64,000 bases of DNA from an uncultured Desulfosporosinus sp. (GTDB lineage: Bacteria > Bacillota > Desulfitobacteriia > Desulfitobacteriales > Desulfitobacteriaceae), in contig CAKMJS010000013.1 of the NCBI GenBank assembly GCA_927405585.1, positions 1 through 64,000 on the forward strand. Direction: 5' to 3'. Positions 16 to 396 of the stretch are shown piece after piece. Position 1 is the first letter of the stretch; every line of letters begins with the position of its first letter. The translations under genes were made by a program, and so were the position numbers. The notes under the pieces were generated by a model. It did not search any database. It was given only the letters and a program-made list of their open reading frames with translations, and was not told the DNA's origin.

Positions 16-336
16 CTATTGACTAATCCCTACCCCTTCAAGTTCTAACCACTTAAAAAATAACATTTTTCTGAGTTTGATGATAATCCCAGAATAGCCA
101 TCTTTAACTTTAAGTTTTGAGGAATAATAGATTTTGATTCCATCTTGATCAAAAACGTTAAATCCAAGTTGTTCATTTGTGTTTGGAGGTCTGACGGAGA
201 GTTTCGGTACGTAACGACCTGTTACGTTTATAGTAGGGCATCATCCGCCTGAAGTGGTAATTTGCTTCAGTTCAATAACTAATGATTCTGATCTAGGCTT
301 GATATATTGTAAGGCTTCTTTTTCAATGACAAACAT
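16..336 (-). CDS. Selenocysteine-containing CC/Se-motif (HesB/IscA-like) small protein
   Basis: The minus strand reads as a 106-residue protein from ATG at 336 to TAG at 16, interrupted only by one in-frame TGA (241-243, codon 32). The TGA sits in the context Gly-Gly-TGA-Cys-Pro-Thr, where a Cys-Cys or Sec-Cys pair would be expected. A hairpin matching the bacterial SECIS rules starts 13 nt after the TGA. A strong AGGAGG lies about 7 nt before the ATG, and a sigma-A promoter lies upstream. The N-terminus (MFVIEKEALQYI) and the C-terminal half (GFNVFDQDGIKIYYSS) resemble small HesB/IscA-like proteins, a group that includes annotated CC/Se-motif (seleno)proteins. Function is unknown; metal or thiol redox chemistry is an inference. 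Read as TGA-stop, only a 31-residue peptide would be made, and the 74 open codons downstream would have no explanation. Confidence 0.85.
209..227 (-). promoter_or_regulatory. Bacterial SECIS hairpin
   Basis: On the minus strand a perfect 7-bp stem, ACGTAAC/GTTACGT, closes a 5-nt loop AGGTC. The loop GG begins 21 nt after the UGA codon, inside the 16-37 nt window known for bacterial SECIS elements. The loop has the GGU core that E. coli fdhF uses to bind SelB. It lies inside the coding sequence, as bacterial SECIS elements must. Confidence 0.82.
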
Positions 337-367
337 AGTGCTCTCCTCCTATAATTATCTTTCTATC

Positions 368-396
368 ATTATACTCTTTGAAGTTGGTTGAGACAA
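368..396 (-). promoter_or_regulatory. Sigma-A promoter for the selenoprotein gene
   Basis: On the minus strand, TTGTCT (391-396) and TATAAT (368-373) are separated by exactly 17 nt. Transcription would start about 25 nt upstream of the ATG at 336, leaving a short leader with the AGGAGG. Confidence 0.65.

Follow-up and report, generated by a model that had tools for sequence, protein, structure and literature searches.

A probable selenoprotein gene of the CC/Se motif family, with a predicted IscA-like fold, in an uncultured Desulfosporosinus sp.

The gene and its signals

The window, i.e. the whole stretch of 64,000 nucleotides analysed here, carries close to its first base a putative selenoprotein gene on the minus strand, with the following features.

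16 to 336, minus strand: selenoprotein gene, CC/Se motif family, 106 amino acids with Sec32 (assigned from the sequence and its homologues)
368 to 396, minus strand: promoter-like site, TTGTCT (396-391), 17 nt, TATAAT (-10 box, 373-368), a consensus match only
345 to 350, minus strand: Shine-Dalgarno sequence AGGAGG, with an 8-nt spacer to the ATG (from the sequence)
336 to 334, minus strand: ATG start codon
241 to 243, minus strand: in-frame TGA, taken as the codon for Sec32 within Ser-Gly-Gly-Sec-Cys-Pro (from the sequence and homologues)
209 to 227, minus strand: bSECIS stem-loop, ACGTAAC (227-221), loop AGGTC (220-216), GTTACGT (215-209) (from folding and conservation)
16 to 18, minus strand: true stop codon TAG (from the sequence)

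An earlier note on this DNA had described a 106-codon gene interrupted at codon 32 by a single in-frame TGA within Gly-Gly-TGA-Cys-Pro, and preceded by AGGAGG and ATG; all of this was confirmed, with AGGAGG at 350-345, on the minus strand, which the note had left unstated. The sigma-A promoter of the same note corresponds to a site with 10 of the 12 consensus bases and a 17-nt spacer, and it stands as a match to the consensus only. The TGA at 243-241 is the only in-frame TGA of the gene, and the residue that it encodes adjoins Cys33, the sole cysteine of the protein. No ordinary ORF of at least 60 amino acids covers the gene in the ORF list, in agreement with the statement that ordinary gene calling yields nothing here, and the open stretch of 74 codons that follows the TGA has a probability of about 0.003 at the local composition. 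On the evidence of the sequence, this is a real, previously unannotated gene, which normal gene finders miss because of an in-frame stop codon read as selenocysteine.

Conservation of the TGA codon and the hairpin

A survey of 46 genomes from the organism's own bacterial family yielded homologues in 14, counting the genome under study. Outside this genome their identity is 42-68%, and each of the full-length homologues in that range has exactly one TGA, at codon 32. The only named homologue from a search of genome contigs, in a Negativicutes MAG (JAOACF010000049.1), likewise has TGA at codon 32. When Sec is written as Cys, an alignment of 26 relatives has just two invariant columns, of which the Sec column is one; it always holds Sec or Cys and never Trp. 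The in-frame TGA thus aligns with Cys or Sec, as in selenoprotein genes. The earlier note had proposed to look for Cys at position 32 of homologues: close homologues have Sec there and distant ones Sec or Cys, and the sequence is conserved after the TGA. In comparison with the two nearest homologues, that downstream part has dN/dS ratios of 0.18 and 0.12, which indicates that it is translated and under selection.

Two paralogues occur in the same genome, one with Cys-Cys (contig C5) and one with a TGA (contig C51). The latter (G000:C51:32600-32836, locus L022, minus strand) has the motif CHTUSGI and a hairpin with a GGTC loop, GCCTCT[GGTC]AGGGGT, and scores 31.6 bits against the NCBIfam model NF041239 discussed below.

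The hairpin downstream of the TGA has a perfect 7-bp stem, a loop AGGUC and a minimum free energy (MFE) of -7.5 kcal/mol. The stem begins 13 nt after the TGA, and exactly 21 nt separate the TGA from the GG of the loop (219-218). Stem, loop and spacing are exactly those given in the earlier note, but its comparison with E. coli fdhF was off by one codon, as the distance to the GG is 18 nt in the fdhF genome record. In both elements a small apical loop with GGUC follows the UGA closely, whereas the fdhF stem is longer and bulged. Published bSECIS criteria are a loop of 3-9 nt with a G in its first two positions, a stem of 4-16 bp, a spacing of 16-37 nt and an MFE of at most -7.5 (PMC13188914). 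The hairpin lies within them, with a loop of 5, a stem of 7, a spacing of 20 and an MFE exactly at the limit, and the distances of 18 and 21 nt are both within the published range. Taken alone, the hairpin is weak evidence, because the 45-nt stretch that contains it is only a little more stable than its shuffled versions (z -0.89) and some 2% of TGA trinucleotides in the window have an equally good hairpin in the right place; it is the homologues that decide.

In an alignment of 13 sequences, all 91 base-pair cells of the stem are paired, compared with 12-56% in controls in which the partner strand was slid by 1-3 columns. Two of the seven pairs are changed on both sides, each in one sequence, and a third is changed on one side; for compensatory pairs, 20 of 500 shuffles scored as high. 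The covariation is limited, as the stem shares its bases with conserved coding sequence (NVTGRYVP), and the conservation of the hairpin is partly that of the protein. The loop reads AGGTC, AGGTA, TGGTA or AGGCA, i.e. [A/T]GG[T/C][A/C] throughout. An Rfam scan around the gene gave no match. Since both the TGA and the hairpin are conserved in homologues, a chance origin is untenable.

The machinery required for selenocysteine insertion, whose absence the earlier note had named as grounds for rejecting its reading, was found in the genome as a full set, as in selenoprotein-encoding genomes: SelA (540 bits), SelB (347 bits, or 375 with a neighbouring match), SelD (411 bits, with an in-frame TGA of its own) and a tRNA-Sec with anticodon UCA (66 bits against a cut-off of 47 bits). 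A formate dehydrogenase alpha gene has one in-frame TGA, as does a HesB-like gene (G000:C29:14282-14548, locus L100, minus strand) with the motif GVGUGGPNFG (UxGP), so that the organism is predicted to have several selenoproteins. A Cys version of the HesB-like gene lies separately on contig C125 (L099).

Two other explanations of the TGA were considered. In a pseudogene, a Cys codon (TGC or TGT) or another codon would have mutated to TGA and the rest would be decaying; a single TGA would look like such a nonsense mutation too, and the gene is located at the end of a contig. However, the family has the same TGA in 13 further genomes, and the separate MAG has it as well, a cross-species conservation that refutes this explanation, the part after the TGA is under strong purifying selection, the hairpin is conserved and the genome has the complete Sec machinery, so that decay is virtually ruled out. 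Some leaky UGA codons undergo readthrough, and the TGA might accordingly be read as Trp or another residue, or else the short product of 31 amino acids might itself be functional. Both variants are highly improbable, given the absence of Trp from the column in relatives, the bSECIS downstream of the TGA and, for the short product, a conserved domain that according to the predicted fold needs the part after the TGA. On these sequence grounds we regard the assignment as a selenoprotein gene as nearly certain.

Family assignment and the series of motifs

The only curated model matched by the protein is NCBIfam NF041239, "CC/Se motif family (seleno)protein" (Moor_selen_rel). The match is full-length (residues 3-102 to profile positions 4-91, E 1.1e-9), but its score of 38.3 bits is 1.7 bits under the cut-off of 40 bits. 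Ten homologues were scanned: five exceed the cut-off, at 45-50 bits, among them the one with 68% identity (47 bits), and five fail it, at 28-40 bits. The protein thus appears, from sequence comparison, to be a divergent homologue of the NF041239 family, which it reaches via orthologues that pass. It shares with the family the homologous region of residues 3-102, Sec or Cys at the motif and a small single-domain architecture, whereas its own subgroup is distinguished by GGU-C or GGU-x-C and by residues inserted behind the motif (VTGxYVP). A Pfam scan of the protein gave no match, PF01521 included. The family is listed among selenoprotein families in a 2026 review (PMC13188914); the main-text passages available from the 2008 and 2016 source papers do not discuss it. 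Although uncharacterised, the family is thus already catalogued as one of selenoproteins, and the gene described here is an added member.

Across the loci the motif is found as Cys-Cys (the C5 paralogue and others), Sec-Cys (among others, the window gene and the two relatives nearest to it), Sec-x-Cys (the remaining close homologues) and Sec-Sec. The Sec-Sec variant defines a sister subfamily with two adjacent in-frame TGA codons, found at 12 loci in 11 genomes of five bacterial families, as follows.

L101-L111 and L118 (e.g. L104:282-572, plus strand; L105:206-493, minus strand): Sec-Sec loci, motif HGUUNAFYAPSGL

Its own hairpin, CCCATCA[GGTC]TGATGGG, has the start of the loop 21 nt downstream of the second TGA. 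Every cell of the stem is paired, and none of 500 shuffles equalled its covariation score. SelA is present in all 11 genomes. Genes for an aldehyde:ferredoxin oxidoreductase and a [FeFe]-hydrogenase-like protein were found at seven of the ten loci examined, and a ferredoxin-like gene at five of them. One member scored 35.5 bits against NF041239, which is also below the cut-off. A search of viral contigs for this subfamily found none. The open literature searched yielded a single case of adjacent Sec residues, an algal PDI_e selenoprotein with the motif GUGUU (PMC7539508). Its consecutive Sec-Sec resembles that of the sister subfamily only, but it is a eukaryotic PDI-type protein, whereas the sister subfamily is bacterial and has its bSECIS within the gene.

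We consider it probable that these proteins form one family in which the same site holds Cys-Cys, Sec-Cys, as in the window, or Sec-Sec, the last being a bacterial protein with tandem selenocysteines, encoded with two adjacent TGA codons and one bSECIS and located at most loci beside genes for an aldehyde:ferredoxin oxidoreductase and a [FeFe]-hydrogenase-like protein. These Sec-Sec relatives are a more surprising lead than the window gene itself.

Gene neighbourhood, predicted fold and proposed activity

Comparison with 15 other loci revealed no neighbour that the window gene has in common with them and no conserved neighbourhood that would indicate a substrate; its own neighbours, coding for a GH20-type hydrolase and a GNAT acetyltransferase, do not recur there. 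In four relatives (L075, L082, L084 and L072) the selenoprotein gene is immediately preceded by a gene of a family of about 200 amino acids, for which Pfam gave no match at cut-off, and three of these four loci also have a CoA-transferase gene and an HpaB-type gene. Positions 1-141 of the window are identical to the final 141 bases of another contig of the same genome, C18 (G000:C18; L068, L087). This contig, on which a GNAT acetyltransferase gene lies in convergent orientation, is therefore probably adjacent to the window.

An AlphaFold2 model of the protein was built from the 26 relatives and has a pLDDT of 87, with a low value of 53 in the motif loop (residues 31-40). Structure comparison of the model gave IscA (1r94, Z 8.5), SufA (Z 8.2) and DsrR (Z 7.5), the next, unrelated entry being at 2.1. 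The fold of A-type carriers is thus found, in the predicted model only, and a PDB sequence search with the alignment gave nothing meaningful. Residue 32 is paired by hhalign with Cys35 of IscA, in a comparison with a single IscA sequence and with weak statistics (probability 13%). The protein is predicted to have an IscA/SufA-like fold with Sec32 at the position of IscA Cys35. The description in the earlier note as a HesB/IscA-like CC/Se-motif protein therefore holds, by NF041239 for the sequence and by the predicted IscA/SufA fold for the structure. With scarcely less confidence than for the selenoprotein assignment itself, we propose that the gene encodes a small CC/Se-family selenoprotein of the IscA/HesB fold, into which Sec would be inserted via SelB and the hairpin. 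SelB-GTP-Sec-tRNA(Sec) would bind the AGGUC hairpin that closely follows UGA codon 32, and the conserved hairpin and the machinery suggest that Sec is indeed inserted there.

Sec32 would take the place of the first cluster-ligand cysteine (Cys35) of IscA, beside Cys33. The predicted fold and this position are shared with HesB-like/IscA A-type carriers (TIGR01911, PF01521; IscA 1s98, SufA 2d2a, DsrR 2k4z), and an A-type Fe-S carrier like IscA or SufA, with Sec as a cluster ligand, was considered on these grounds. This is unlikely, as A-type carriers have three cysteines, including a C-terminal Cys-x-Cys, which is lacking here, where Sec32 and the single Cys33 are the only such residues; the genome also has separate HesB-like genes. 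The motif of known HesB-like selenoproteins is UxGP and not GGUCP. Adjacent Sec-Cys, Cys-Cys or Sec-Sec pairs are good ligands of soft metals, and a selenol/thiol protein for metal binding or detoxification, which would not be a redox carrier, was considered as well; it is similarly improbable, since no metal-resistance neighbours were seen at the loci examined and the Sec-Sec relatives sit with redox enzymes. The activity that we tentatively favour is that of a selenol/thiol Sec-Cys pair on an IscA-like scaffold, which may act in redox chemistry, e.g. through a selenylsulfide, or in soft-metal binding, and not as a classical three-Cys Fe-S carrier, because Sec32 lies beside the only cysteine and Cys-x-Cys is absent.

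The gene adds to the CC/Se family a member that is skipped by the ordinary ORF list and that, like half of the ten homologues scanned, falls below the cut-off of NCBI's curated model. The predicted IscA fold, in which Sec occupies a cluster-ligand position, gives this uncharacterised family a testable biochemistry. With the series of Cys-Cys, Sec-Cys and Sec-Sec at one site of one family, it could be tested directly what Sec contributes and how two consecutive UGA codons are served by one bSECIS.
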